Of a DNA stretch of 44,231 nucleotides, positions 1,800 through 35,121 are shown one piece after another. The DNA comes from Alphaproteobacteria bacterium (GTDB lineage: Bacteria > Pseudomonadota > Alphaproteobacteria > SHVP01). The stretch lies in NCBI GenBank assembly GCA_016869765.1, contig VGES01000028.1, forward strand, positions 1-44,231, in the 5' to 3' direction. Numbering within the stretch: position 1 is the stretch's first letter; each line of letters starts with the position of its first letter. The notes under the pieces were generated by a model, which made no database searches, was not told where the DNA came from, and saw nothing but the letters and a program-made list of their open reading frames with translations. The position numbers and the translations under genes are program-made.

Positions 1800-3491
1800 C
1801 TAGCGCTCCGCGAGAAACCGATCGAGCACTTGTCGCCGAGACTCATAGCCGGCATCGAGTGTTGCGATCTCGGCCGCTCGGAACAATTTCGCGACCTGTG
1901 GCATTTTCGCGTGGGCTGGGTGCCATGGCTCCGCGCACAGCATGACAGGAACGCGAACGCGCCGGAAACGGGACGCCGAATCGTAGCGCAGTGAAGCGTC
2001 GATCGGTAGATGATATGTGGCGCCACTCTTGAGGATCTCTAGAGCACGCCGGTGCAGGAGCTCGGGCGAAAAGTCAAAGGGACGCTTCAAGGCCGTTACC
2101 GCCGTCCGCGCGAACCAAGGCCAGAAAAGATAGTGGTCTCGAACCATCAGCCAGGTCCGATAGAGGTGAGCGCCGTCCCACTCTGGTTTGATCGATGGAC
2201 AGTATCGATCGAGAAATTCCCTTCGCTCGCGAGTGGTCAACACGACGACATCTTCGAGCACAAGCCGCCCGACGACCTTCGGAAACGCAGCGGCAAGTTC
2301 TACCGCAATTGGAACCGCTAGCCCTCTGGCCGCAATGTCCACTCGGCGTATACCGAGGCCGCCCAAGCCTCGTCCGATTGCCTGTGCAAAGTCGAACACC
2401 CTCGGCAATCGTTGTGGAAGAGGATCGGAATCGCCGGTCCCCGGCAGATCGAAAGCGAGCACAGGCCGATCACGTGCCAACTGTCTGACCGCCTCTGTCA
2501 CCATCGCGGATGAACCGGGCAAGTCATGAAGGAGCAGCAGTGGACGCCTCTCTGCTCGCCCGAAGAAACCTCTTACCCTCACCTGTCCGGACGGCAGATC
2601 GATGTAGGTGACGCCCGGTCGCCCAGCGAGTTTCAGCGACTCGATATCCTCTGGGGGCGTACCTCTGGCATATTTGGCGAAGGCCCGTGCAATCGCGGCG
2701 TAGATATCCTTCGGCCGCGACGACGGCACCCAGACCACCTGTTGGTGACGCCGTAAGCTCTTGAGCGTCTTCAGGGCGGGCGAAAGCAAGGTATCGTCCC
2801 TGCGCCCCAAGAACGTGATCGGCCCGAGCACCCGTTTGATTGTGGCGACCGCATCCTGGCCGAACGCGGAATTGTATCCGTGCCGGTAATGGTCACCGGC
2901 ACGAAGAAAGCCCATCGTGCGGTCTTGCAGTTCTTCCGCCTGCGGCATCCCTCGAAGTCGACGACCAGTCTCGTCGCGACGATACCAGGGGAAGAATGTG
3001 CGGTGGTCGCGAATTCTCGTCCAGAGGGCGGCCAAGTGACCTCCATCCCACACAGGCCGATATCTCGGCGCGTAGTAGCGTAAGAACTCTCTCCGATCCC
3101 GCGGCGAAAAGATCGGCAACCCGTTCAGAACGAGGCCCGTGGTCAGCGTTGGGTGTCGTGCCCCGAACGCGAGCGCGATTGCCGCTCCGGTATCGAGCCC
3201 GTATATCGGACATGGCGGCATGGCGAGCACAGCAAACGTTTCCGCCAATGCGTCGGCAAAGACGCGAGCATCGACCCTCGATACCGAGAGCGGATCAGAA
3301 TCGCCGAACCCCGGCGTATCGAACGCAAAGACCGTGAACCGCGGGGAGAGTGAGCGAATAAGGTCGACGTAGGCGCCCGAATGCATCGGCGATTCGTGCA
3401 GCAGTACGACAGGCGACCCGTCGCCAGCCCGCCGGTAATGAACGAACCTGCGCCCGACCGGCACATAGCGTCGAGCGATCTCATGTCCCAT
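1800..3491 (-). CDS. Tandem alpha/beta-hydrolase fusion with non-canonical catalytic sites
   Basis: A 563-aa protein made of two alpha/beta-hydrolase folds in tandem (about residues 1-275 and 295-563). The halves are clear duplicates: both carry REFL-x-RY, WDG-x-HL, RDH and a PW motif in the same order in the cap region, and both have a LLH[ED]-P start and an FD-x-P-G-x-GDSDPL loop. Half 1 has GLDTG at the nucleophile elbow (Asp100 where Ser is usual). Half 2 has AARGLA, with Arg389 at the aligned position. The C-terminal catalytic His is missing in both (SSRPKD and DAGYES instead). The function is unknown; it may be a pseudoenzyme, a binding protein or a catalyst of a different type. The start is set at ATG 3491 because the longer frame would run into the divergent gene. 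Confidence 0.8.
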   Translation of the reverse strand: MGHEIARRYVPVGRRFVHYRRAGDGSPVVLLHESPMHSGAYVDLIRSLSPRFTVFAFDTPGFGDSDPLSVSRVDARVFADALAETFAVLAMPPCPIYGLDTGAAIALAFGARHPTLTTGLVLNGLPIFSPRDRREFLRYYAPRYRPVWDGGHLAALWTRIRDHRTFFPWYRRDETGRRLRGMPQAEELQDRTMGFLRAGDHYRHGYNSAFGQDAVATIKRVLGPITFLGRRDDTLLSPALKTLKSLRRHQQVVWVPSSRPKDIYAAIARAFAKYARGTPPEDIESLKLAGRPGVTYIDLPSGQVRVRGFFGRAERRPLLLLHDLPGSSAMVTEAVRQLARDRPVLAFDLPGTGDSDPLPQRLPRVFDFAQAIGRGLGGLGIRRVDIAARGLAVPIAVELAAAFPKVVGRLVLEDVVVLTTRERREFLDRYCPSIKPEWDGAHLYRTWLMVRDHYLFWPWFARTAVTALKRPFDFSPELLHRRALEILKSGATYHLPIDASLRYDSASRFRRVRVPVMLCAEPWHPAHAKMPQVAKLFRAAEIATLDAGYESRRQVLDRFLAER

Positions 3492-3581
3492 GACCTTGAC
3501 CTCCGCCCCAGAAACAAGAGTCAGTCTATCGTCATTCTGCCCGACGTTGAGCGAAGTGCCCCTGCCCAATAGTATTCTTCG

Positions 3582-4565
3582 GTGCGAGCCATTCAGTACG
3601 AACAGTTCGGCGATCCGGCGACGGTCCTCGCGATCGTGGAGGAACAGGTCGAAGCGCCGCGGCCAGACGAAGTCGTGATCGCCGTCGAAGCAACCCCGGT
3701 GATGTTGAACGATCTGTATCACGTCAATGGCAAGGCCGACTTTCGGCGCCCGTTGCCGGCGGTGCCGGGAAACCAGGGCGTTGGACGGATCGCCGCGGCT
3801 GGCGCCCAGTCGGGCTGGCGAGAAGGCGATCGAGTCTTCTTGCCGAGCAAAGGGGGCACGTGGCGCGACCGCATCCTATGTCCAGCGACTGGATTGTTCC
3901 GAGCCCCTGAAGGAGGCGACCCGGTTCAGTTGTCGCTGGTATCAGGGAATCTGCTCACTGCCTATCTGATGCTGCGATACATCCGCCCTCTCCACGCTGG
4001 CGAGTGGATCGTTCAGAACGCCTCCAACTCGAACTGCGGCGGATATGTCATCCGCCTTGCACGCGCCTGGGGAATGCGGACGGTGAACATCGTTCGGCGC
4101 CCTAGCTTGGTCGACCCGCTCAAGAAAATGGGAGCAGACGCTGTGGTGCTTGACGACGAGCATCTGACGGAAGCTGTCCAAGCTGCAACGGGTGGCGCTC
4201 CCATCCTCCTCGGTCTTGACGCCGTTGCCGGCGCCGCCACGGATCGCATGGCAAGGTGCCTAGCGCCAAACGGTATCGTCGCCACCTACGGATTCATCAG
4301 CAGCACGGAGGCCCGTATCTCGGTCGCGGCTATGATGTTCAACGCGATCTCCCTGATCGGGTTTTTCAAGAGCCGGACCTTCGCGGAGCAAACCAGGGAG
4401 CGGCAGCGCGAGATCTATGACGAGATGGGACGAATGGTTGTCGACGGACGAGTTTGGGGCGAGATAGCCGGAGTGTTTCCGTTTTCATCGTTTGGTGAGG
4501 CGGTGAGGCTCGCGGCCCAGACCGGAACAGGACGACACGGCAAGGTCATTCTCGTCCCGCAATGA
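3582..4565 (+). CDS. MDR-family NAD(P)H-dependent oxidoreductase, enoyl reductase-like (MECR/ETR type)
   Basis: A zinc-free medium-chain dehydrogenase/reductase of 327 aa. It begins at GTG 3582 (MRAIQYEQFGDP), matching the start of trans-2-enoyl-CoA/ACP reductases of the MECR type. The family signature PAVPGNQGVGRI lies near residue 65. The Rossmann domain begins around IVQNASNSNCGGYVIRLAR and contains the VGR-like segment NIVRRPSLVDPLKKMGAD; VQNASNS is characteristic of MECR. It probably reduces an activated C=C bond with NADPH. The flavoprotein that follows is 30 nt downstream on the same strand, so the two probably share a transcript. It is divergent from the tandem hydrolase across 90 bp that must hold both promoters. 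Confidence 0.8.
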   Translation: MRAIQYEQFGDPATVLAIVEEQVEAPRPDEVVIAVEATPVMLNDLYHVNGKADFRRPLPAVPGNQGVGRIAAAGAQSGWREGDRVFLPSKGGTWRDRILCPATGLFRAPEGGDPVQLSLVSGNLLTAYLMLRYIRPLHAGEWIVQNASNSNCGGYVIRLARAWGMRTVNIVRRPSLVDPLKKMGADAVVLDDEHLTEAVQAATGGAPILLGLDAVAGAATDRMARCLAPNGIVATYGFISSTEARISVAAMMFNAISLIGFFKSRTFAEQTRERQREIYDEMGRMVVDGRVWGEIAGVFPFSSFGEAVRLAAQTGTGRHGKVILVPQ

Positions 4566-4595: not shown

Positions 4596-6113
4596 GTGTC
4601 AGCAAAGGATATGGGCCATGATTGGTCGGAGAGCGCCGATGTCGTCGTGCTTGGTTTTGGCTTGGCGGGAGCTGTTTCGGCCATTGTCGCAAGCGACCAG
4701 GACTCGTCGGCCGACGTCCTGATCGTTGAGAAAATGCCGGAGCGTTTCGTTGGCGGCAACAGCCGCGCCTCTGGCCAGACGATCTTCTGCCCGACGGACC
4801 GGGATGCGTTGCGACGTTACAAGATGGCAATGGATGAGCCCAATCCGCTTCCTGGCCCGGTGCTCGAGGCCTGGCTCGACGAGGTCGTCGTGCTTGAGGG
4901 TTGGCTCACGACGATGGCCTCCGCCGTAGGCCATCGTTACGTTCACACCAACCGCGGCAATGCCAATAGCGTCTTGGTCGAGTTTCCGGAGTTTCCTGGA
5001 TCCGAATGCGTGAAGTTCAATTCGACCATCGAGCCGAACCCGAGCGGCGTTTGGAATTGTTTTCATCGCCACGTCGAAAAGCGGCGCATCCGGACGCTCT
5101 TCGAAAGCGCGGCCACCAAACTCGTCCAAGATCCAGACACTCGGGAAGTCCTCGGCGTTGAGGTCACATCTGGAAGCGTGCGCCGAGCTATCCGCGCCAA
5201 GCGCGGTGTTGTCTTGTGCACCGGCGGTTTCGAGAACAACCTCGCTATGCAGCGGAACCTATGGGGCGTAGATCGCGTCTACACCCTCGGGACGCCAGGA
5301 AATACTGGGGACGGCCTCAAGATGCTACAGCGCGCGGGGGCGGATCTCTGGCATGTGCGCAACGTCACGCAGTCGGGAGGCTTCTGGCCTGCGTTCAAGG
5401 TGCCGGAATTCGAGGCAGCGTTCATGCGCCGGAGCCGGCTCACGCACTTCAGCTTCATCGAGATCGCGCGCGATGGTCGCCGGTTCAACAACGAGACCAC
5501 GCCTTATCGACTGCGCCATGCCAAGCAACTGATTCATGGCCGTTGGGTCGACGCGCCACACGCCTATGTCACGCCAGCCTACATGATCATGGACAAAGCC
5601 ATGATGGACGCGGCCCCCCTCGTCGGCTGGTTCAGCCATCCGATCGGTTGGAATTCCGTCGTCCTCGGCTACGAGTGGAGCGCCGATAACCGAAAGGAAC
5701 TTGGTAGCGGTTGGATCAAGCAATGCGACTCGATTGCCGCGATCGCCCAGGAGACCGGGATCAAAGAGGCTACTCTTGGGCGGACTATCGCGGAGTACAA
5801 CCAGTCCTCTGCAGAAGGAATAGATCGGGAATTCGGACGACCGGCAGGCGAGATGCTCCCACTCGCAGGGCCGCCCTATTTTGTCATCGAGATCGTACCC
5901 GCGATCGTCTCGACCACCGGGGGCGGCCGCCGCAACGCCCATGGGCAAGTTCTCGATCACGATGGCAGGGTGATCCCGCGGCTCTATGAGGCAGGAGAGC
6001 TCGGCGCAGCCAATCCCAATCTCTATCAGTCCGGTGCCTTCTTGACGGACTGTTTGGCCTTCGGCCACATCGCCGGACGGAATGCTGTCAGAGAGCGTCC
6101 CTGGGCGAACTAA
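4596..6113 (+). CDS. FAD-dependent dehydrogenase, fumarate reductase/tricarballylate dehydrogenase-like
   Basis: A 505-aa FAD_binding_2 flavoprotein related to the fumarate reductase flavoprotein, 3-ketosteroid dehydrogenase and TcuA. The N-terminal dinucleotide fold reads VVVLGFGLAGAVSA, followed by acidic VEK and GGNSRASGQ, the loop that typically contacts FAD. ARDGRRFNNE and the C-terminal YEAGELGAANPNLYQSGAF are family signatures, the latter closing the FAD site. The start is GTG 4596. It oxidises or reduces a C-C bond next to a carbonyl or carboxylate; the exact substrate is not visible. No TcuB-like membrane partner is present, so the tricarballylate role is only a resemblance. Likely co-transcribed with the enoyl-reductase-like gene upstream. 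Confidence 0.8.
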   Translation: MSAKDMGHDWSESADVVVLGFGLAGAVSAIVASDQDSSADVLIVEKMPERFVGGNSRASGQTIFCPTDRDALRRYKMAMDEPNPLPGPVLEAWLDEVVVLEGWLTTMASAVGHRYVHTNRGNANSVLVEFPEFPGSECVKFNSTIEPNPSGVWNCFHRHVEKRRIRTLFESAATKLVQDPDTREVLGVEVTSGSVRRAIRAKRGVVLCTGGFENNLAMQRNLWGVDRVYTLGTPGNTGDGLKMLQRAGADLWHVRNVTQSGGFWPAFKVPEFEAAFMRRSRLTHFSFIEIARDGRRFNNETTPYRLRHAKQLIHGRWVDAPHAYVTPAYMIMDKAMMDAAPLVGWFSHPIGWNSVVLGYEWSADNRKELGSGWIKQCDSIAAIAQETGIKEATLGRTIAEYNQSSAEGIDREFGRPAGEMLPLAGPPYFVIEIVPAIVSTTGGGRRNAHGQVLDHDGRVIPRLYEAGELGAANPNLYQSGAFLTDCLAFGHIAGRNAVRERPWAN

Positions 6114-6145: not shown

Positions 6146-7009
6146 TCACGCCTCGAGGTGGCGTGGCCGAAGATGTTCGACGATGATTCCGCCTCGGCGC
6201 CCAATCACGAGCGACACGACGTATAGCGCTCCCGCGCATAGGACGATCGCCGGTCCCGACGCTACGTCCCCATGAAACGAGATCAATAGCCCCGTGTAGC
6301 TGGATGCCAGGGCCATTGCGACGGCTGAGAGAATTTGGCCGCTGACCGAGCTTGCCCAGAATCGTCCCGAAGCAGCCGGCAGCATCATCAACCCGACAGC
6401 CATCAGCGTTCCCAACGCCTGGAACGCAGCGACAAGACTCAAGACCACGAGTACGAGAAACGCCGCATGATACCGCCCACCATGCGCGTGGACCGATTTC
6501 AGGAATTCGGGGTCAAAGCACTCGGCCAGTAGCGGTCGGTAAATGATGGCGAGACCTACGATGCTGACAGAGCCAATTGATGCCACCAATAGAAGAGCAT
6601 GATCATCGACCGCAAGGATCGAACCGAACAGAAATCTCATTAGGTCTACGTTGGTCCCGAAGGAAGAAACGATCAGGACGCCGACCGCGAGGGAAACCAG
6701 GTAGAATGCGGCGAAGCTCGCGTCCTCGCGCAGCGGGGTCCAGCGCGTGACGAGACCGGCCAAAACGGCGACTATCAGTGCAGCGACCATCCCGCCAATC
6801 GTCAACGCAGAAAGCGAAAGCCCCGCGACAAGGAATCCCACCGCCACGCCGGGCAGCAACGCATGGCTCATTGCGTCGCCGACGAGGCTCATTCGGCGCA
6901 ACACGAGCCACACGCCTACCGCCGGACAACAGAACGACAGGGCGATCGTCGCCGCGAGGGCACGACGCATGAATGCGTAGTCGATGAATGGGGCGTATAG
7001 GATGTCCAC
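6146..7009 (-). CDS. znuB: Zinc/manganese-type ABC transporter permease (ZnuB family)
   Basis: A 287-aa integral membrane protein of the ABC-3 (ZnuB/MntB/TroC) family. It starts with GTG at 7009, directly abutting the stop of the ATPase gene. Eight or so hydrophobic segments are evident. The LRRMSLVGDAMSHALLPGVAVGF stretch, with its GD-x-M-x-HALLPG core, is the family signature, and VGLMMLPAASG is the later conserved helix. It forms the inner-membrane channel for Zn2+ (or Mn2+) import. Zinc is favoured because a Zur-like box precedes the operon. No periplasmic binding-protein gene is adjacent. Confidence 0.85.
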   Translation of the reverse strand: MDILYAPFIDYAFMRRALAATIALSFCCPAVGVWLVLRRMSLVGDAMSHALLPGVAVGFLVAGLSLSALTIGGMVAALIVAVLAGLVTRWTPLREDASFAAFYLVSLAVGVLIVSSFGTNVDLMRFLFGSILAVDDHALLLVASIGSVSIVGLAIIYRPLLAECFDPEFLKSVHAHGGRYHAAFLVLVVLSLVAAFQALGTLMAVGLMMLPAASGRFWASSVSGQILSAVAMALASSYTGLLISFHGDVASGPAIVLCAGALYVVSLVIGRRGGIIVEHLRPRHLEA

Positions 7010-7744
7010 TTAGGGTCGCTCACAGATCTCGGCATCCTGGCGCCAAGCCTCGGCCATGGTCCGTGCCCGCTGTTCGTTCTCCGCGGTCAGGACGTCGTGG
7101 GTTGGACCCCAAGCAAGACACTCGCGTGCGAGATAGAGGGCATTGGGAAAATAGGCACGAACCTGATCGTGGTCATGGAGTACGGCGATCACGGTCCGCG
7201 ACTCTCCGTGCCATCGTTCCAGAACAGCGATCAAGTCCTCCGTCGTCCGACGATCGAGAGCGGCGAACGGTTCATCGAGGAGAATGATCGAGGCGTCCTG
7301 CAGAAGTAGGCGAGCGAAAAGGACGCGCTGCAATTGTCCCGTCGACAGTGTGCCGACGGGGCGCTCTTGAAACTCGTCTAGTCCAACAATGGAAAGAGCG
7401 TGGTTAGCGTCCTCGACCATCCGCCGCGAGTAGCGACCAAATGGCCCCACTCGGGTCCAATGTCCGAGGAGCACGACTTCTAGTACCGATATCGGGAAGC
7501 TTCGGTCCAACGCCGACTGTTGAGGAAGAAAAGCGACACCTGCCCCGTGCTCACCGACATGAATGCGCCCCGAGTCGACGGGATGCAGACCGCTGATCGC
7601 CTTCAGGAGGGTGCTCTTGCCCGCCCCATTGGGCCCAACGACGGCTGTAAGGGTCCCCGAATCGAATGTGCCCGAAACGTGATGCACCGCAGGGTGTCGC
7701 CCGTAAGACACGGTCACATCGGTCAGGCAAAGCGAGGCACCCAT
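7010..7744 (-). CDS. znuC: Zinc/manganese-type ABC transporter ATP-binding protein (ZnuC family)
   Basis: The 244-aa ATPase subunit of the metal importer. Walker A is GPNGAGKST, the signature is LSTGQLQR, Walker B is IILLDEPFAALD, and the switch His is in AVLHDHDQ. LSTGQ rather than LSGGQ is common in this metal-import subfamily. ATG 7744 is preferred. The frame continues to a TTG at 7876, but that extension overlaps a separate 40-aa ORF, and a ZnuC fold begins right after MGASLCLTDVTVSYG. No Shine-Dalgarno precedes ATG 7744; translation is probably coupled to the small ORF, whose stop lies 2 nt upstream. The permease begins immediately after its stop. Confidence 0.85.
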   Translation of the reverse strand: MGASLCLTDVTVSYGRHPAVHHVSGTFDSGTLTAVVGPNGAGKSTLLKAISGLHPVDSGRIHVGEHGAGVAFLPQQSALDRSFPISVLEVVLLGHWTRVGPFGRYSRRMVEDANHALSIVGLDEFQERPVGTLSTGQLQRVLFARLLLQDASIILLDEPFAALDRRTTEDLIAVLERWHGESRTVIAVLHDHDQVRAYFPNALYLARECLAWGPTHDVLTAENEQRARTMAEAWRQDAEICERP

Positions 7745-7746
7745 GA

Positions 7747-7869
7747 CTAGGTCAAGGCCCACCACACGCTGAGCCAAATCACGGCTACCGCGAACGTGAG
7801 AGCCAAAGTCCGACGGACAGTGCCGGCTGCGAAGACGGCTGCGCCCATGCGGAGACCGGATTGCTCCAT
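7747..7869 (-). CDS. Small membrane protein (40 aa) heading the zinc importer operon
   Basis: ATG at 7869, preceded by AGGAG about 10 nt upstream, opens a 40-codon frame that stops with TAG 2 nt before the ATPase start. The product begins MEQSGLRMGAAVFAAG, then has TVRRT, then one hydrophobic segment (LALTFAVAVIWLSVWWALT) to the C-terminus. It would be a single-pass membrane peptide with a short cytoplasmic head. The Zur-like operator is only 24 nt upstream, so this is the first reading frame of the transcript and probably couples translation of the ATPase. No family is recognised. It could be a leader peptide or an accessory subunit. Confidence 0.5.
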   Translation of the reverse strand: MEQSGLRMGAAVFAAGTVRRTLALTFAVAVIWLSVWWALT

Positions 7870-7892
7870 TGCCCAATGCTCCTGGCGTCGAC

Positions 7893-7905
7893 GTTATATC
7901 ATAAT
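7893..7905 (-). promoter_or_regulatory. Zur-like operator upstream of the zinc importer operon
   Basis: GTTATATCATAAT is an imperfect palindrome (4 of 6 arm positions pair) matching the proteobacterial Zur core GTTATAnTATAAC at all but two arm positions. It shares 10 of 13 bases with the perfect copy at 34234. It lies 24 nt upstream of the first ORF of a ZnuCB operon, in A/T-rich DNA where a promoter is expected. Zur with bound zinc would repress here. This is inferred from sequence similarity and context. Confidence 0.6.
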
Positions 7906-7927: not shown

Positions 7928-8725
7928 TCATAAAGAGAAGCCTCGCCCAACCGTAAGGCATAGGCAGCCTTCACGGCCAACGGCACGGGGGCCAGAATCC
8001 TGACCCGTCGCGGTCGCCCACGACGCGAAAGTTCCAACCTCCCAAGACGTGTTGGCCAAGCGCATGGAGCCTGCGACGACGTATGCCCAGCCGCGCTCGG
8101 TAAACGTGAGCGACAGATTGCGAGATGGCCACGACGGGGGAAGGTAAACCAAAACGACCGGGTCGATGCCCCCGCCTCCCGGCGACTCTCGACTGAGGAC
8201 TTTGGTCGAAACCCCGTCAAGACTCGGATGATCCACCCAGTCCAGACTCTCGGTGTCGATTACGACCACTTGAGTCGCCGAAAACGGAGCCACACCGGAG
8301 GGGCCGCTGAACGGTACCTGTTCACTCTCGAGCGGATCCGCCTCGAACTCCCCCCCGTGAGAGGTCCAGATGAGGAATTCGCATCCTGTCACCGACTTCG
8401 CCTCGGGGTGCCGCCCGTGGATGCTGAACGGAGGCCGATCCATGAACGTACCACGCCGAAACTCAACGAAATGCCCTTCGGTGTCGGCCACGTCGTTGAA
8501 CTCCCAACTCGGGAGGTGCCCCCATAGGAACAAGAAGGTCTCTCGAACAGATCGATGATATCGACGTGCGGGCTGCGGAACGGACCCAGGAAAGACGTAG
8601 CGACGATGGACGTAGCTCCCGGTGCGTTTGTCGGTCGCAAGCACCTTGCGAATGGACCCTGGCAAGGCATGGGGCTCCCAAGGAATTCCGTCGCTTTGAC
8701 GTATCATTAGACCGGACATGCGCAC
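7928..8725 (-). CDS. Bicupin-like protein of unknown function
   Basis: A 265-aa soluble protein that looks like two beta-barrel (cupin-like) halves. The first has RRYHRSVRETFLFLWG (HxxxE) and a later IHGRHPEAKS. The second is the C-terminal half with LTFTERGWAYVVAGSMRL and VGTFASWATATG, resembling a cupin strand pair with a degenerate metal site. It resembles DUF4437/'cupin domain-containing' proteins only loosely. The start is GTG 8725 (GTGG about 8 nt before); ATG 8719 or 8707 are alternatives. It lies on the same strand as the zinc operon, with its stop about 20 nt before the Zur-like box. Its 5' end is 43 bp from the phage remnant. Confidence 0.55.
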   Translation of the reverse strand: MRMSGLMIRQSDGIPWEPHALPGSIRKVLATDKRTGSYVHRRYVFPGSVPQPARRYHRSVRETFLFLWGHLPSWEFNDVADTEGHFVEFRRGTFMDRPPFSIHGRHPEAKSVTGCEFLIWTSHGGEFEADPLESEQVPFSGPSGVAPFSATQVVVIDTESLDWVDHPSLDGVSTKVLSRESPGGGGIDPVVLVYLPPSWPSRNLSLTFTERGWAYVVAGSMRLANTSWEVGTFASWATATGQDSGPRAVGREGCLCLTVGRGFSL

Positions 8726-8768: not shown

Positions 8769-9035
8769 TCAGTCCGCGCGCCACACGGCGCGCTCCAGGT
8801 TGGTGATCCGGCGGCCGTGCTCCTCGAGGGAGCGGTGGTCGGCGGCGGCGGTGATGCGGTCGGCGGTGACGACGTCGATCAGCTTCTTGACGTCGCCGCG
8901 CAGGTCCAGGAACGCCCAGACCGCCATGGCGGCGATGATCGCGGCCAAGGGCACGCCGACCGAGGCCATGGCGCGGGCCATCAATTGCAGTTGCGGCGAG
9001 CCGTTCGCCTTCTCCACCTTGTCGCGCAGGCTCAT
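8769..9035 (-). CDS. Phage small membrane protein, possibly holin-like
   Basis: An 88-aa protein: a polar head (MSLRDKVEKANGSPQLQ), one membrane helix (about residues 24-44, ASVGVPLAAIIAAMAVWAF), then a charged heptad-rich tail (RSLEEHGRRITNLERAVW) likely to form a coiled coil. It starts with ATG 9035, overlapping the previous stop by 4 nt. Position after tail fibre genes and topology suggest a lysis role (holin or spanin-like), but no family was recognised. It is the last gene of the phage fragment. Confidence 0.6.
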   Translation of the reverse strand: MSLRDKVEKANGSPQLQLMARAMASVGVPLAAIIAAMAVWAFLDLRGDVKKLIDVVTADRITAAADHRSLEEHGRRITNLERAVWRAD

Positions 9036-9397
9036 GTCGTCCCCCCGTCTTGGCGCCAGGCCCGCCCGGTGGCGAGCACGCAGGTCGCGCCGTAGCGGTT
9101 GGTGGCGGTGACGGTGAACCCGCCCAAGGGCGAGGTCCAAAGCTCGATCACGCGCACCCCGCCCTCTTCCAGGCCGCCGGCCGCGGCGCGCTCGCCCGCC
9201 TGGCCGAGGATCTGCGCCATGGTCGTGCGATCGCCGCACAGGCCCACGGCGCTGGGCGGTGGGGCCGCGGCGCAGGCGGCGAGCGCCACCGCAAAGAGCA
9301 CGAGGCACGATGCCCCCCTCGCTCGCTGTCGCGAGCTTCTCCCCCCGGAACGGGGGGAGATCAAGAGGGGGGAGCCGTGCGAGAGCAGGTGCGTCAT
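9032..9397 (-). CDS. Phage lipoprotein-like small protein carrying an in-frame palindrome
   Basis: A 121-aa frame opening at ATG 9397, overlapping the preceding stop by 4 nt. Residues ~30-42 form a hydrophobic run ending VALAAC, a plausible lipobox with the Cys followed by small residues. The rest (LCGDRTTMAQILGQ, GGFTVTATNRYGATCVLATG) is a compact domain with paired Cys, of no known family. The first ~25 codons contain a 60-bp nested palindrome (9313-9372) that keeps the frame. Either the element was inserted in frame, or translation really starts downstream at a GTG just before the hydrophobic run. Confidence 0.55.
   Translation of the reverse strand: MTHLLSHGSPLLISPRSGGRSSRQRARGASCLVLFAVALAACAAAPPPSAVGLCGDRTTMAQILGQAGERAAAGGLEEGGVRVIELWTSPLGGFTVTATNRYGATCVLATGRAWRQDGGTT
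9313..9372. repeat. 60-bp nested palindromic element (three-way-junction fold)
   Basis: Outer arms CCCCCCTC (9313-9320) and GAGGGGGG (9365-9372) pair perfectly. Inside them are two perfect hairpins: GCTCGC-TGTC-GCGAGC (9321-9336), and a 10-bp stem TCTCCCCCCG/CGGGGGGAGA with a 3-nt loop (9338-9360). The structure resembles dispersed palindromic elements (REP-like) of alphaproteobacteria. It is 60 bp long and keeps the reading frame of the small phage gene it lies in. No second copy was seen in this window. Confidence 0.7.
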
Positions 9398-9762
9398 GGT
9401 TTTGGATGCGCCGCTTTGATCGCGGCGATGTTTCCCAGGAGCGCCTCGAACTCGGGCGTGCGATTCGCGGCCAAGGAAACGCGCATCGCCTCGACCTGCG
9501 TGATCAGCACGTCGAGTACGTCACCAACGACGCGCTCGAAGCTGCCGGCATCCGTGGGCACCTTGGCCAGCTCGCGCTTGTAAGCCGCGGCGCGGCGAGC
9601 GCGATAGTCGGGCGCCGGCAGTTTGGCGAACTCGGTCAGCGTCGCCCCGATCAACGGCGCCCCGCCCTCGCGCCATTTCTGTTCGAAGTACGCATCTATT
9701 TCATGCGGCGCGAGCGCCCGCCCAGCGATGGCGCGCTCGGTAGCGGTCAGGGTGTAGTCCAT
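9394..9762 (-). CDS. Phage hypothetical protein (122 aa)
   Basis: A soluble, mostly helical 122-aa protein beginning MDYTLTATERAIAGR, with a strong ribosome site (GGAAGGAGAG) 6 nt before ATG 9762. Charged helices (ERVVGDVLDVLITQVEAMRV) suggest an oligomerising coiled coil. No family was recognised. It sits between the tail fibre and lipoprotein-like genes and overlaps the latter by 4 nt, so it belongs to the phage late transcript. Confidence 0.6.
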   Translation of the reverse strand: MDYTLTATERAIAGRALAPHEIDAYFEQKWREGGAPLIGATLTEFAKLPAPDYRARRAAAYKRELAKVPTDAGSFERVVGDVLDVLITQVEAMRVSLAANRTPEFEALLGNIAAIKAAHPKP

Positions 9763-9786
9763 AAGGGGCTCTCCTTCCTTACCCGA

Positions 9787-10683
9787 TCAACCAGCCAGCG
9801 AAATACGCGTGGTGCACCAGCGAACCACCAGCATCGTGACCCACACGTAGTAGCTGGTGTTGGCCGCCTTGGCGCCGGTATCGAGCCCGCCCTGGTTGGT
9901 ACCGACCGCCCAGGCGGCATCGAGCTGCTTGACCAGGGTCGACGACAGGATCATGTCGACCGTGTCGGCGCCATCGCGGCACACGCCCGAGCCGATGTCG
10001 ATGTCGTTCGAGGGGTCGGTGCCGTTCAGCGCGAGTGACAAACCGACCAACGCATCGCGACTGTTGGCGGCGGCCAGTGTCTCGCGGCCAGCAGCGGCGG
10101 TGGCGGCGCCGAACAGTGACTTGCCCGTCGTCCCGCCGCCCAGCGTCGTCAGCGCCGCGTCGGCCGAGGCATCGTCGACCACGGTCTGCATGAACGTGCT
10201 GATCGGCACGCCCGAGCCGGGCGGCGGGCCCCACAGCAGTCCGTTGGCCGCGGCGTTGACGCCCAGGAACTGCGAGGCGACCAGGGTCGGCAGTTGCAGC
10301 GAGGTCGTCCCGGTCGAGGGCGGCTGCACCAGCGTGCGGTCGATCAGCTCCTTGAGCTGGAGCACCTGCATGATGGTCTGGTCGAGCTGCTTCTCGAGCG
10401 AATCGGACGACAGGGGCCCCTGGGTCGGGATGTCGGTGGGCTGGGTGTAGGGCACGGCGCGGATCAGCGTCACCTTGGTGCCGTTGGCCGGCGCGGTGGT
10501 GAATGTGACGTTGCCGCCGGCATCGTTGCCGACGCCCGAGACCGAGAACCCCGAAGACTGCAGCACGTCGGCCAAGTAGACGCCGAGGTGCGTCGCATCG
10601 TCGATGCGGAACTGGTAGGCGAACGCGGTCTGCGATCCGTTCGCCGTGTAGTTGTTACGGTTGGTGGGGGACGTAAGTGTCAT
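9787..10683 (-). CDS. Phage tail fibre protein, T7 gp17 N-terminus type, C-terminally shortened
   Basis: A 298-aa tail fibre. The first ~130 residues (NRNNYTANGSQTAFAYQFRI, VTLIRAVPYTQPTD, LEKQLDQTIMQVLQLKELID) match the T7-type fibre N-terminal domain that attaches to the tail. A collagen-poor shaft follows, then SRDALVGLSLALN and LDAAWAVGTNQGGLDTGAKA, a segment frequent in alphaproteobacterial phage fibres that is usually followed by a longer domain. Here it ends soon after SYYVWV, and the adjacent frame continues AGGSLVHHAYFAGWLIG, suggesting a frameshift or deletion that removed the receptor-binding tip. ATG 10683 has GGAGG upstream and overlaps the previous stop by 4 nt. Confidence 0.7.
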   Translation of the reverse strand: MTLTSPTNRNNYTANGSQTAFAYQFRIDDATHLGVYLADVLQSSGFSVSGVGNDAGGNVTFTTAPANGTKVTLIRAVPYTQPTDIPTQGPLSSDSLEKQLDQTIMQVLQLKELIDRTLVQPPSTGTTSLQLPTLVASQFLGVNAAANGLLWGPPPGSGVPISTFMQTVVDDASADAALTTLGGGTTGKSLFGAATAAAGRETLAAANSRDALVGLSLALNGTDPSNDIDIGSGVCRDGADTVDMILSSTLVKQLDAAWAVGTNQGGLDTGAKAANTSYYVWVTMLVVRWCTTRISLAG

Positions 10684-12184
10684 CGGACGGCCTCCGTCGG
10701 TCGCAGCCAGAACGTCTGGCGGTTTTGTTGTTCGATGCGGCGCTCGAAGCGGCGCAGGAAGCCGGGGTTCAAGGCTTCCTGGACCTGGTAGAGCACCAGG
10801 TAGTCGAGCGCAGGCTTGACGTAGAACAGGTTGAGGAACGGCGTGTGGCTCAGCGCCGCCTGGAACGCCTCGGCCGAGGGGTCCTGGCCCTGCTTGGCCT
10901 GGTTCCACAGACCGACCACGTCACCCACGGTGCCGGCGGTGGGCCCGAGCGCAGTCTCCCAGAACGAACGTCCGAAGCGCGAGAACTCGCCCACCAGAAA
11001 ATCGCCGTAGATGCCGGCGCCGCCGCCCTGCAGGAACGCCGCGGCCCAGGTCTTGGGGTCGGTGGGGTCACGCGGGTTGCGGCCCTTCACGAGATCCTTG
11101 GCGCTCATCGCCAGATAGCCGAGCGCGGTCGCCGCCACCATCATGTGGACGATGCCGGCGGTGGCGCCGGCGCCGCCCTGGCCGCCGTAGAGCTCTCGCC
11201 CCCAGGCCTTGGTGATCACCGCGGTCGGGAACGCCTTGAACTGGGTGAACAGACGCAGCGCCGAACCGACGACTGTGCCCGGCCGCTGACCCTGCAGGAG
11301 AATCGCGCGTTCACGCGCCCCCGGCCGGATCACGGCGAAGTCGGCGCGATCGGCGTAGTAGCCCTGCAGCGCCAGGCCGAGGTCCTGGCGGTACGCCTCG
11401 CGGAGCTGGACGGCACGCCGCGGCAAGGCGCCTTGGAGTTCGGCGACCCGAGCACGTCTTCAATAAGCGAGTGCGCGCCGAACGCGTCGTGGTAGTCCAT
11501 CCACGCATCGGCGTCCTTGAAGTGCAGCAGCCGGCTCTGCGACAGCCGCTTGGCCAGGTTGCCCGGGCCCTTGAACGCCGGGTCCTTGAAACCCTGGAGG
11601 CCGTCGGGGGTGAGGTGGATGCCCGAGACCAGCGCGTCGTAGACCGAGCGCAGGAAGGCTTCCGGCTCGGCAATGCCCTCGACGGTGCGGGCCTCGAGCA
11701 GCGGTGTGATCGTGTCCCGCCAGGCGGTGTAGCCGGCGCGGCGCAGCCGATCGGGGTCGTGGCTGGTGCGGGCGATGTAGCCCTCGTAGCGCCCGATCCA
11801 GGCGCCGGCACGGTTGAGGCCGTCGACCGCCAGCACCTGGTAGCGGTGGACGACCTGGGCGATGGTGCGCGCCTCGACCGAATCGGTGACACCCGTAGGA
11901 TCACCGCGGGACAGGGCATGCAGCTCGCGGGCGATCTCGCGATCGAGCGCGCCGCCGCGGGTCGCCTCGAACAAGTGCGCGCGGTCGAGGTCGGCCGCGA
12001 GCCCGGCCAGGTAGGTGCGCTCGAGGGCCAGGCCCTCGGCATCGACCGAGCGGCGGGAACCGGCAAACGGCGTATTGACGCCGGCGAGGCGCGCCGCCAT
12101 GCCGCGCACCGGGTTGGGCGTGGTACTTCGGGCACTATCGGACCACTGAATTGAGCCGTCGCCCCATTTCACCCGCCCGGTCAT
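10680..12184 (-). pseudogene. Phage internal virion-like protein, frameshifted/deleted
   Basis: Two consecutive frames belong to one gene. The 5' part (from ATG 12184, MTGRVKWGDGSIQ) reads through YHDAFGAHSLIEDVLGS to about 11445. The 3' part resumes in another frame (ELQGALPRRAVQLREAYRQD) and continues with RPGTVVGSALRLFTQFKAFP and a glycine-rich membrane-like segment to the stop at 10680. FGAHSLIEDVLGS and TQFKAFP are typical of large internal virion proteins of podoviruses found in alphaproteobacterial prophages. Those proteins are usually much longer, so sequence has been lost at the frameshift and possibly upstream. ATG 12184 overlaps the stop of the truncated DUF6671-like frame. Confidence 0.6.
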
Positions 12185-12408
12185 CGCGCCTTGCGGATCG
12201 CCACCTCCCACGGGCTGCCGACCCGTTCGACCTCGCCCGAGAACGTCCCGAGGCGGTCGGTGTCCAATCCTTCGGGCACGACCAATTCGAGGCCGAGCGC
12301 TACCCTCAACGGGCGAGCGAACACCCGCTCCTTCCCGTGCATGGTGGCGAGCACGGCTCGGCGTTGACGATAGCGCTGCAAACCCCGATCCCCCTCAGGT
12401 GTGCGCAA
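12181..12408 (-). pseudogene. Truncated DUF6671-like protein interrupted by phage DNA
   Basis: A 75-aa frame containing RAVLATMHGKERVFARP, LDTDRLGTFSGEVERVGSP and ending EVAIRKAR. This pattern (ATxHGKE near the N-terminus, then DTDxLGTFSGEVxR) matches the start of DUF6671 proteins as I recall them. Those continue for a further ~200 residues, beginning with a Lys-Ala helix exactly where this frame stops. The break coincides with the ATG of the phage gene. The rest of the gene is not at the other phage edge, so the insertion was accompanied or followed by deletion. TTG 12408 is the only upstream start in frame. Confidence 0.5.
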
Positions 12409-32775: not shown

Positions 32776-33124
32776 GCGCCACCTCGAACGCCGTAACCAG
32801 GCTTCCATCGGAAAACCGCCGACCATCGGCAAGGTGACCGCGCCACGAGCCGTCGCTTTCCCGCTGTAAGGATTTGGCGAGCGACGGAACGATCTGACCC
32901 AGGCGATCGACGGTGAACAGGTTTTCGGCAACTCCGTGAGATACCAGGGCCCAACCCGCAGATCCTTCCGCGGGATCGAGCCCGGTCGCGAGAAAGGTCT
33001 GCCCAACGATGAGCCATTCAACGCCCGAGGCCGGTCCGATCGTCGCCGAGCTCAGCGCTAGAGACACTGCCGCCCCAACGACCAGCGCAACACAGGAACG
33101 CCACTTCCGCACGGCTTGTCTCAC
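32732..33124 (-). pseudogene. 5' fragment of a peptide/nickel-type binding protein gene
   Basis: GTG 33124 (overlapping the GTPase stop as GTGA) opens a frame with a signal peptide (CVALVVGAAVSLALSSATIG) followed by EWLIVGQTFLATGLDPAEGS, LFTVDRLGQIVPSLAKSLQR and GRRFSDGSLVTAFEVAHGLN. This is the first ~100 residues of an SBP_bac_5 protein (NikA/DppA-like, normally ~500 aa). Past that it degenerates and stops at 32732, while another frame picks up permease sequence. Its coupling to the COG0523 gene and the Zur-like box suggests the intact transporter was zinc-regulated. Confidence 0.7.
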
Positions 33125-34179
33125 GGCCTTTGGCTCGTGCTCGTCAATCCGTCCTCGTGAAACGGCTTCAGCGTAGAACGCAAGAGGTCCTCATCCATGT
33201 TGCGGGTAATGAACACGATCCGCGTACGCCGATCGGCGCTCGGCCAACGCTCGAGCGCGACCGCGGGATGGAAGACGTGTTGCACCCCGTGAATGACCAC
33301 AGGGGCCTCGAGACCTGCCACGTTGATGACGCCCTTGACCCGCAGGAGGTCGGCCCCACGGAACAACAGAAGCGTTTCCAGCCAGGCCTCGAAGGCGCTC
33401 GGCGCCATCGGGCGATCGAGGGTCAGGCAGACAGCCCGAATTCTCTGGTCGTGGCGATTGACGTCGTGACCAAGATGATCATGGTGGGCATGGCTCGACA
33501 CCGCCTCGGCTCTGAGCCAGGCCTGGACATCGGGGTGTTTTGCCCCCGGGTCGAAAAGACCGACGCCGAACAAAGCCTCGGCATCGACGGAGCCATTACT
33601 GACGGGCAACCGAGGCGCTGCCGCATTAAGGTCGGACAGACGACGGTGAAGTTGTTCGATGGCTGCGACGGTCGCCAGATCCGTCTTTGTGATCAAGAGG
33701 CGGTCGGCGACGGCGGCCTGCTTTGCCGCCTCCGGTTGGCGCGCGATCGTGTCAGCGCCGTTGACGGCATCGACGGTCGTGATCACCCCGTCGAGCCGAT
33801 AGCGCCGCGCGATCGCCGGCTCGGTCATCAACGTGTGAAGGATCGGCGCGGGGTCGGCCAAACCCGTGGTCTCGATCACGACGCGGCGAAACCAGGGTTT
33901 TCCCTGGCGCGCAAATCTCCACGTGGCCTCACGCAGGCTTTTGCTCAGATCGCCACGAATCGTGCAACACAAACAACCGCTCGACATCTCGACGACGAGA
34001 TCGTCACGGCTTTCACTGACCAGATCGTGATCGATGCCGATTTCGCCGAACTCGTTGATCAGCACCAGCGTATCGCGCAAGGCCGGCTGACGAACCAGAT
34101 GATTGAGAATCGTCGTCTTGCCGCTGCCGAGAAAGCCGGTCAACACCGATACCGGGATCACTTCAGCGCCCAAAGGCAT
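33121..34179 (-). CDS. COG0523 (CobW-family) GTPase metallochaperone
   Basis: A ~352-aa G3E GTPase. Walker A GFLGSGKTTILNHLV, the metal site SSGCLCCTIRGDLS (CxCC), switch ETTGLADPAPIL, ITTVDAV, and TKTDLA for guanine recognition. A His-rich linker (SSHAHHDHLGHDVNRHD) precedes the CobW_C domain, as in zinc-responsive members (ZagA/ZigA type). ATG 34179 is chosen; TTG 34230 would add 17 residues but overlaps the operator's flank. The Zur-like palindrome lies 55 bp upstream. Likely delivers zinc to client proteins under zinc starvation; cobalt is the alternative. Translation is coupled with the fossil transporter downstream. Confidence 0.85.
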   Translation of the reverse strand: MPLGAEVIPVSVLTGFLGSGKTTILNHLVRQPALRDTLVLINEFGEIGIDHDLVSESRDDLVVEMSSGCLCCTIRGDLSKSLREATWRFARQGKPWFRRVVIETTGLADPAPILHTLMTEPAIARRYRLDGVITTVDAVNGADTIARQPEAAKQAAVADRLLITKTDLATVAAIEQLHRRLSDLNAAAPRLPVSNGSVDAEALFGVGLFDPGAKHPDVQAWLRAEAVSSHAHHDHLGHDVNRHDQRIRAVCLTLDRPMAPSAFEAWLETLLLFRGADLLRVKGVINVAGLEAPVVIHGVQHVFHPAVALERWPSADRRTRIVFITRNMDEDLLRSTLKPFHEDGLTSTSQRP

Positions 34180-34233
34180 TTCCGACGCTACCACCAATGT
34201 CGCGCCCCTTTCCCAACCCACCAGGGTCAATTG

Positions 34234-34246
34234 GTTATACTATAAC
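34234..34246 (-). promoter_or_regulatory. Zur-like operator, perfect palindrome, overlapping a stop codon
   Basis: GTTATACTATAAC is a perfect 6-1-6 inverted repeat matching the proteobacterial Zur core. It lies 55 bp upstream of the COG0523 GTPase start on the minus strand. The stop codon (TAG, 34240-34242) of the upstream BtuF-like gene occupies the centre of the palindrome. COG0523 genes under Zur are well known, which supports function. No -10/-35 assignment is certain. Confidence 0.75.
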
Positions 34247-35028
34247 AGTTCCGGGCCATGAAGCGCTCTGAGGATCGCATCCAGACCGTCCGTCAGCGCA
34301 GCGGGGCCTGGTTGCAAAATGAGCGGCGACTTGATCTCGTGAATCCGTTGCAGACGCACGGCTGGGATCGTATCCCATCCGGGGCGCTCGGCGATCCGCT
34401 CCGGTCGAACCCTTTTCCCACACCACGACGCGAGAATCACCTCCGGAGCGGCGGCAATCACTTGCTCTGTCCGCACAATCCTGTCGGTCGCCGCCTTCCT
34501 GAAGCGCAGATCGGGAAACACGTCGATCCCACCTGCAGCGTCGATCAACTCCCCCACCCAACCGATCCCGGAAATCATCGGATCATCCCATTCCTCGAAG
34601 TAGACCCTTGGCCGAGGGCGTGCCGAGACGCGTTCACGAACGAGCTCAAGACGACGTTCAAGCCCGGTCGCAAGGGCTTTAGCCTCCTGTGCGCGATCGA
34701 CAAGTGCACCCAGGGTCCGGATCATGCCGAGAATTCCGGCGACGTCACGCTGGTTGAAAGCGTGAACCGCAACGCCGGCGCGAATCAGATCGGCGGCGAC
34801 CTCTGCCTGAAGATCGGAAAAGGCGAGCACCAGATCGGGGGCGAGCGCCAGAATTTTGGGAATATCGGCCGAGGTGAAGGCGGCGATTCGGGGTTTCTCA
34901 CGGCGAACGCGGGCCGGCCGCACCGCGTAACCGGTGACCCCGACGATTCGCTCTTCCGCCCCCAGAAGATAGAGCGTCTCCACGGTCTCCACCGTAAGGC
35001 AGACGATTCGTTGTGGAGGAAAGGCCAT
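34240..35028 (-). CDS. Cobalamin/metal-chelate-binding protein, helical-backbone receptor (BtuF-like), no signal peptide
   Basis: A ~262-aa helical-backbone metal receptor (COG0614, BtuF-like). It begins at AFPPQRIVCLTVETVETLYLLG and has the class III pattern: VGVTGYAVRPARVRREKPR, then IPKILALAPDLVLAFSDLQ, VYFEEWDDP, and WVGELIDAAGG with a final RLQRIHEIKSPLIL. There is no signal peptide, as in a group of proteins annotated 'cobalamin-binding protein'. It has no transporter partner here. ATG 35028 has AGGTG upstream; GTG 35034 is possible. It is the upstream gene of the zinc-linked cluster, and its end carries the operator of the next gene. Confidence 0.75.
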   Translation of the reverse strand: MAFPPQRIVCLTVETVETLYLLGAEERIVGVTGYAVRPARVRREKPRIAAFTSADIPKILALAPDLVLAFSDLQAEVAADLIRAGVAVHAFNQRDVAGILGMIRTLGALVDRAQEAKALATGLERRLELVRERVSARPRPRVYFEEWDDPMISGIGWVGELIDAAGGIDVFPDLRFRKAATDRIVRTEQVIAAAPEVILASWCGKRVRPERIAERPGWDTIPAVRLQRIHEIKSPLILQPGPAALTDGLDAILRALHGPELL

Positions 35029-35121
35029 AGTCACCTGTGAGCCGACGTGGGATGAGCCGATGTTCGAGTAAGATCGAGCGCGTCGGACGAGTCAACGGTC
35101 TGGCCACGCCAGGAGGAGACT

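Follow-up and report, generated by a model that had tools for sequence, protein, structure and literature searches.

AztAB-type zinc importers most likely have an accessory subunit: a conserved single-span microprotein encoded ahead of aztA

The window analyzed here, a 44,231-nt stretch of an alphaproteobacterial genome (contig VGES01000028.1; genome G000), encodes a 40-aa membrane protein directly upstream of the genes for an AztAB-like zinc importer. This microprotein is very likely a real, conserved protein, and most likely a small accessory subunit of AztAB-type importers that would bind AztB and affect transport. In its full form, which we regard as probable, the proposal describes an N-in/C-out subunit that is repressed by Zur, coupled to aztA and, in many lineages, equipped with a zinc-binding His tail. 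It builds on computed coding status, conservation, linkage, a single helix, a Zur-like box, His tails, and loss and fusion events, from which we infer the topology, the binding of AztB and of zinc, and the effect on transport. Zinc importers of this class have been described as three-part machines composed of a binding protein, a permease and an ATPase, and we know of no small single-span subunit from a zinc or manganese ABC importer. A fourth conserved component, if true, would change the study of importer assembly and regulation, rhizobia and Neisseria included, and would make testable the notion of a metal importer equipped with a cytosolic acceptor or sensor of zinc of its own; its small size and its absence from Paracoccus-type aztABCD operons would have caused it to be overlooked. 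No published description of the microprotein was found in the open-licence literature, and an earlier account elsewhere is possible; a few database entries list it as a hypothetical protein without a name (Skermanella WP_203101353.1, Thioclava XBA80629.1, Paracoccaceae QEW23251.1).

The microprotein ORF (7747..7869, minus strand; MEQSGLRMGAAVFAAGTVRRTLALTFAVAVIWLSVWWALT) begins with an ATG located 9 nt after an AGGAG ribosome-binding site (7879..7883, minus strand; duplex energy -6.6 kcal/mol) and ends with a TAG 2 nt ahead of the ATPase ATG at 7744. The hydropathy of 1.97 across residues 21–40 indicates one helix (a cut-off of 1.6 is passed by 5 of the 111 ATG ORFs of 30–60 aa in the window), and the AlphaFold2 model comprises a helix spanning residues 4–39 (mean pLDDT 85). 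The arrangement given in the preliminary description, i.e. a small ORF with an AGGAG, one membrane helix and a stop codon 2 nt before the ATPase, is therefore borne out; its remark that the ATPase has no ribosome site holds only in part, as a weak site exists inside the last codons of the small ORF (-5.4 vs -6.6 kcal/mol for the small ORF itself). Searches of Pfam and NCBIfam yielded no match for the window microprotein and none for 56 microprotein cores (0/56 at E 0.01), and the PDB contains no chain resembling it, although structures of ZnuB/MntB-type permeases exist; assignment to a known small-protein family was dropped for want of any match.

The order on the minus strand is Zur-like box, AGGAG, 40-codon ORF, ATPase, permease. 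The ATPase (7010..7744, minus strand, ATG start) scores 210.6 bits against the AztA profile NF040873 (curated NCBIfam cut-off 220), and the permease (6146..7009, minus strand, GTG start) 261.5 bits against the AztB profile NF040871 (cut-off 280); these are the nearest families, both scores are only slightly below the cut-offs, and the ATPase falls inside the AztA clade of the ATPase tree. On the strength of the profile scores, the ZnuC/ZnuB-type naming used previously for this importer is corrected to AztA/AztB-like. No substrate-binding protein gene adjoins the aztAB pair in the window; binding proteins of that family are encoded elsewhere in the genome (G000:C92 and G000:C2:50559-51398) and may act in trans with it. 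Beyond the operon, prophage- or tail-module-like genes occupy positions of about 8770-12200, just upstream of a cupin-like gene (7928-8725).

The microprotein frame is under purifying selection and evolves as coding sequence. For ten Herbaspirillum loci the pN/pS is 0.33 and the NG ratio 0.28, whereas the two alternative frames have ratios of 0.88 and 6.4; 0/500 column shuffles gave a ratio as low as 0.28. Pooling over 18 groups of closely related (congeneric) loci gives a pN/pS of 0.38. The synonymous bias (pN/pS 0.33-0.38), suggested in the preliminary description as a means of judging the frame, is hence present. A chance ORF was rejected on the grounds of this selection and of the recovery of the window ORF in a blind genome search (E 1.2e-5). 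The frame of the ATPase is also open upstream, to position 7876 in the window and likewise in many relatives, and one Bradyrhizobium annotation is extended in this direction, as would be expected if the ATPase truly started at an upstream TTG (a 288-aa form) and the small ORF were a by-product of that frame. We find this scarcely credible: the conservation sits in the frame of the small ORF and not in the upstream frame of the ATPase, the TTG lies 2 nt after the AGGAG, and many relatives have stop codons in the upstream ATPase frame.

Conservation is concentrated in an ungapped 28-residue core, marked by the pattern S/G, 3 residues, Arg, 10 residues, Leu-Trp, 2 residues, Val, 1 residue and Trp-Ala (Arg20, Trp32, Trp37 and Ala38 in the window protein). 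Loci with AztA homologs, drawn from relatives in the class and from named genomes, were inspected upstream of the ATPase, and a core profile built from 14 sequences was used to search 111 loci (706 kb), translated as six-frame segments. In 92 of the 111 it matched immediately ahead of the ATPase; a few of these matches scored below 7.8 bits and were kept for their location and the Arg. Two further loci, L007 and L149, were added by eye. The best match elsewhere reached 7.8 bits, except in L015 (23.7) and L014 (interrupted by a run of N). In a blind search, a 28-column profile of 56 cores was compared with 386 whole genomes of the same class and produced 82 matches in 81 genomes, 79 of them 30–167 nt upstream of AztA on the same strand; a partial match in G293:C67 is probably due to chance, and the one in G153:C19 lies at a contig end. 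Both searches show that frame and core are conserved ahead of the importer ATPase in relatives, which is where the preliminary description had proposed to look. Across 397 Pseudomonadota genomes the microprotein was matched in 49, including 23 outside the class, and all 46 loci inspected adjoin an AztA-like ATPase. The genome of the window itself has two copies, one in the window and one on G000:C92, where aztA, aztB and the gene for a substrate-binding protein come next. Among 139 members the Arg is invariant (139/139) and the other core residues are frequent (W 96%, A 88%, W 83%, L 88%); finding members by profile slightly favors the Arg figure, most loci, however, having been chosen by AztA and not by the ORF. 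Like known small accessory subunits, the microprotein is both co-encoded with a complex and conserved as a protein.

Its distribution follows the phylogeny of the ATPase. Of 127 ATPases placed in a tree, 103 form one clade (support 99/96), and 93 of these have the microprotein; the sister group lacks it throughout. Its presence and absence require 4 changes on the tree vs 30 when shuffled. Within the clade it is missing from L179, from its usual place in the Bradyrhizobium fusion discussed below, and from one group of eight (support 100/99: Paracoccus twice, Klebsiella, Shinella, Sinorhizobium, Qingshengfaniella, Mesorhizobium and Phyllobacterium). AztD is annotated beside the operon in five of these eight, and in a sixth that position is taken by a gene without a name. 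That the AztABCD type of Paracoccus, known from experiments, belongs here may account for the protein having gone unnoticed. AztD (NF038015) has no match in the genome of the window, so that its importer is not of the AztABCD type; the profile matches 3 of the 386 class genomes and none of the 81 that carry the microprotein, and with so few AztD genomes to compare, the tree is better evidence than genome counts on whether the two exclude each other.

The preliminary description had left two readings side by side, an accessory peptide of the importer and a translational leader. If the ORF were a leader only, its translation would bring ribosomes to a weak aztA start and the peptide would have no function; the weak ribosome site of the ATPase in the window and, at many loci of relatives, the overlap (ATGA) or near overlap of the ORF and the start of the ATPase fit this. 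Yet the core residues keep a fixed spacing across loci that differ in the distance from the ORF to the ATPase start, the frame is selected as protein, many members have His-rich tails, and in relatives the ribosome site of the ATPase frequently equals that of the small ORF. Moreover, a leader peptide would be expected to stand immediately before its target gene without exception, and two cases depart from this. In L218 (G024) aztA is preceded at a distance of about 1 kb by an intact core, and the interval contains an EamA-like transporter gene (recognized by eye) and a separate Zur-like box. Six near-identical Bradyrhizobium plasmids carry the core at the N-terminus, apparently as an anchor, of a 447-aa protein with DUF7453/NxxGxxAF repeats, encoded at the far end of the operon after the substrate-binding protein gene aztC, and the one plasmid examined in full has no ORF of the family before aztA. 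The separated locus and the fusion event are each known once; the DUF7453 domain was present in only one of 357 class genomes searched for further fusions. Because of the fixed spacing at a varying gap, the separation in G024 and the fusion, the ORF is not a leader alone, and we consider that reading very unlikely. The accessory peptide, in turn, gains from the protein-level conservation, the purifying selection, the aztA linkage, the separated locus and the fusion; translational coupling between the ORF and aztA may exist besides the protein role. As to annotation, the start given for the Bradyrhizobium fusion gene (L232, 6030-7370) at 6108 is inside the core and removes the anchor, and that given for the ATPase of the same locus (3342-4223) is far upstream of the conserved start; ATPase annotations extended in this way can hide small upstream ORFs.

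The zinc and Zur context suggested earlier is likewise supported. A Zur-like box, ATTATGATATAAC (7893..7905, minus strand; 12/13 motif match), precedes the microprotein ATG by 23 nt, so the promoter of the microprotein operon carries a predicted Zur box. Scanning the window with the pattern RTTATNNTATAAC and at most 1 mismatch, where 0.10 matches are expected from shuffling, returned exact matches at 7893-7905 and at 34234. The second box (34234..34246) is a perfect palindrome directly followed by a gene for a CobW/COG0523-type GTPase (33121..34230, minus strand), and box and gene are probably part of the same regulon. In the 4-Mb genome the exact motif occurs at these two places only, ahead of the AztAB-like operon and of the GTPase. 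More generally, the 13-mer GTTATGATATAAC is matched in at least 11 positions upstream of 33 of 83 microproteins vs 0 of 83 shuffled sequences. The Zur boxes of P. denitrificans tested for Zur binding by EMSA (e.g. GTTACGATATAACAT) also stand ahead of aztA and of a COG0523 gene (PMC5387054). The GTPase encoded at 33121-34230 is His-rich, and a Peripla_BP_2 binding-protein gene adjoins it (34240-35034).

His-rich N-terminal tails, delimited with inferred start codons, were found in at least 22 of 129 distinct members, with a His content of 9.8% of tail residues vs 0.5% of the remainder. The window microprotein has no His; in some His-free members (L007, L130, L149) the downstream ATPase has His residues at its N-terminus. 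The positive-inside rule suggests an N-in/C-out topology, with which the Bradyrhizobium fusion also agrees, and the tails are accordingly predicted to be cytosolic; it is plausible that they bind zinc. In the mechanism we envisage, low zinc would relieve Zur repression of the transcript, the microprotein would be made first, and the 3' end of its ORF would be coupled to the translation of aztA. The helix would keep the protein with AztAB, placing the invariant Arg at the cytoplasmic edge and the Trp-rich end outside. In many lineages the His-rich cytosolic tail would probably bind zinc near the permease exit, and the bound zinc would be either received from the permease or sensed to slow the pump; in lineages without His in the tail, the window included, the microprotein would probably aid assembly or stability. 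Only tentatively do we extend this to an undescribed extra subunit whose tail binds zinc at the permease exit and either relays it or, once cytosolic zinc is sufficient, stops the pump, the periplasmic AztD system being the alternative in the lineage that lost the microprotein. A comparison of AztB between clades with and without the microprotein yielded few candidate columns for a partner surface and none convincing; D135 might possibly be the partner of the invariant Arg. Among permeases that occur with the microprotein, 86% have Asp at residue 135 of AztB (encoded at 6146-7009 in the window); the eight from the group in which the microprotein was lost all have Asn, and the outgroup mostly has Leu.

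Against an accessory subunit it may be said that the AztABCD systems of Paracoccus and Klebsiella manage without the microprotein, and that neither a clear partner surface in AztB nor a similar PDB chain was found. It is conceivable, if rather unlikely, that the microprotein is a zinc-starvation membrane protein co-made with the importer but acting on another target (a sensor, a protease or a periplasmic partner): it is linked to Zur, and the Bradyrhizobium fusion adds a large, probably periplasmic domain. However, the linkage to aztA is nearly without exception and the protein tracks one AztA clade.

Among described systems, AztABCD of Paracoccus denitrificans (PMC5387054) shares with the window the AztA/AztB-like pair, a Zur box ahead of the operon and a COG0523 gene in the regulon, but differs in that its Zur box precedes aztA by 30–44 nt and in having AztD and, in the two Paracoccus species examined, no microprotein. 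ZniCBA of Rhizobium leguminosarum is similarly a Zur-regulated three-gene zinc importer, with a Zur box 153 bp before zniC and a requirement for the -258 to -88 region (PMC12183173). No microprotein has been described there, but relatives with a gap of 154–156 nt between Zur box and gene have a 129-nt microprotein ORF inside it, and this spacing suggests its presence in R. leguminosarum. In Neisseria gonorrhoeae, whose ZnuCBA/MntABC has been described as three genes with the microprotein unmentioned (PMC9280163), the AztA-type ATPase is preceded by a member of the family and a Zur-like box. KdpF, CydX and AcrZ (PMC3618439, PMC6005532, PMC7267776) are comparable as proteins of ~30–60 aa with one helix, tied to a large membrane complex; the likeness is one of size and arrangement, and the His-rich tails are particular to the microprotein family. 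The second microprotein-aztA-aztB-binding-protein operon of the genome (L221; G000:C92 1-9461) has as neighbors genes for threonyl-tRNA synthetase, a cysteinyl-tRNA synthetase-like protein, a second CobW GTPase and a hexapeptide-repeat protein that by eye resembles gamma carbonic anhydrases, and these surroundings look like a zinc-sparing island.
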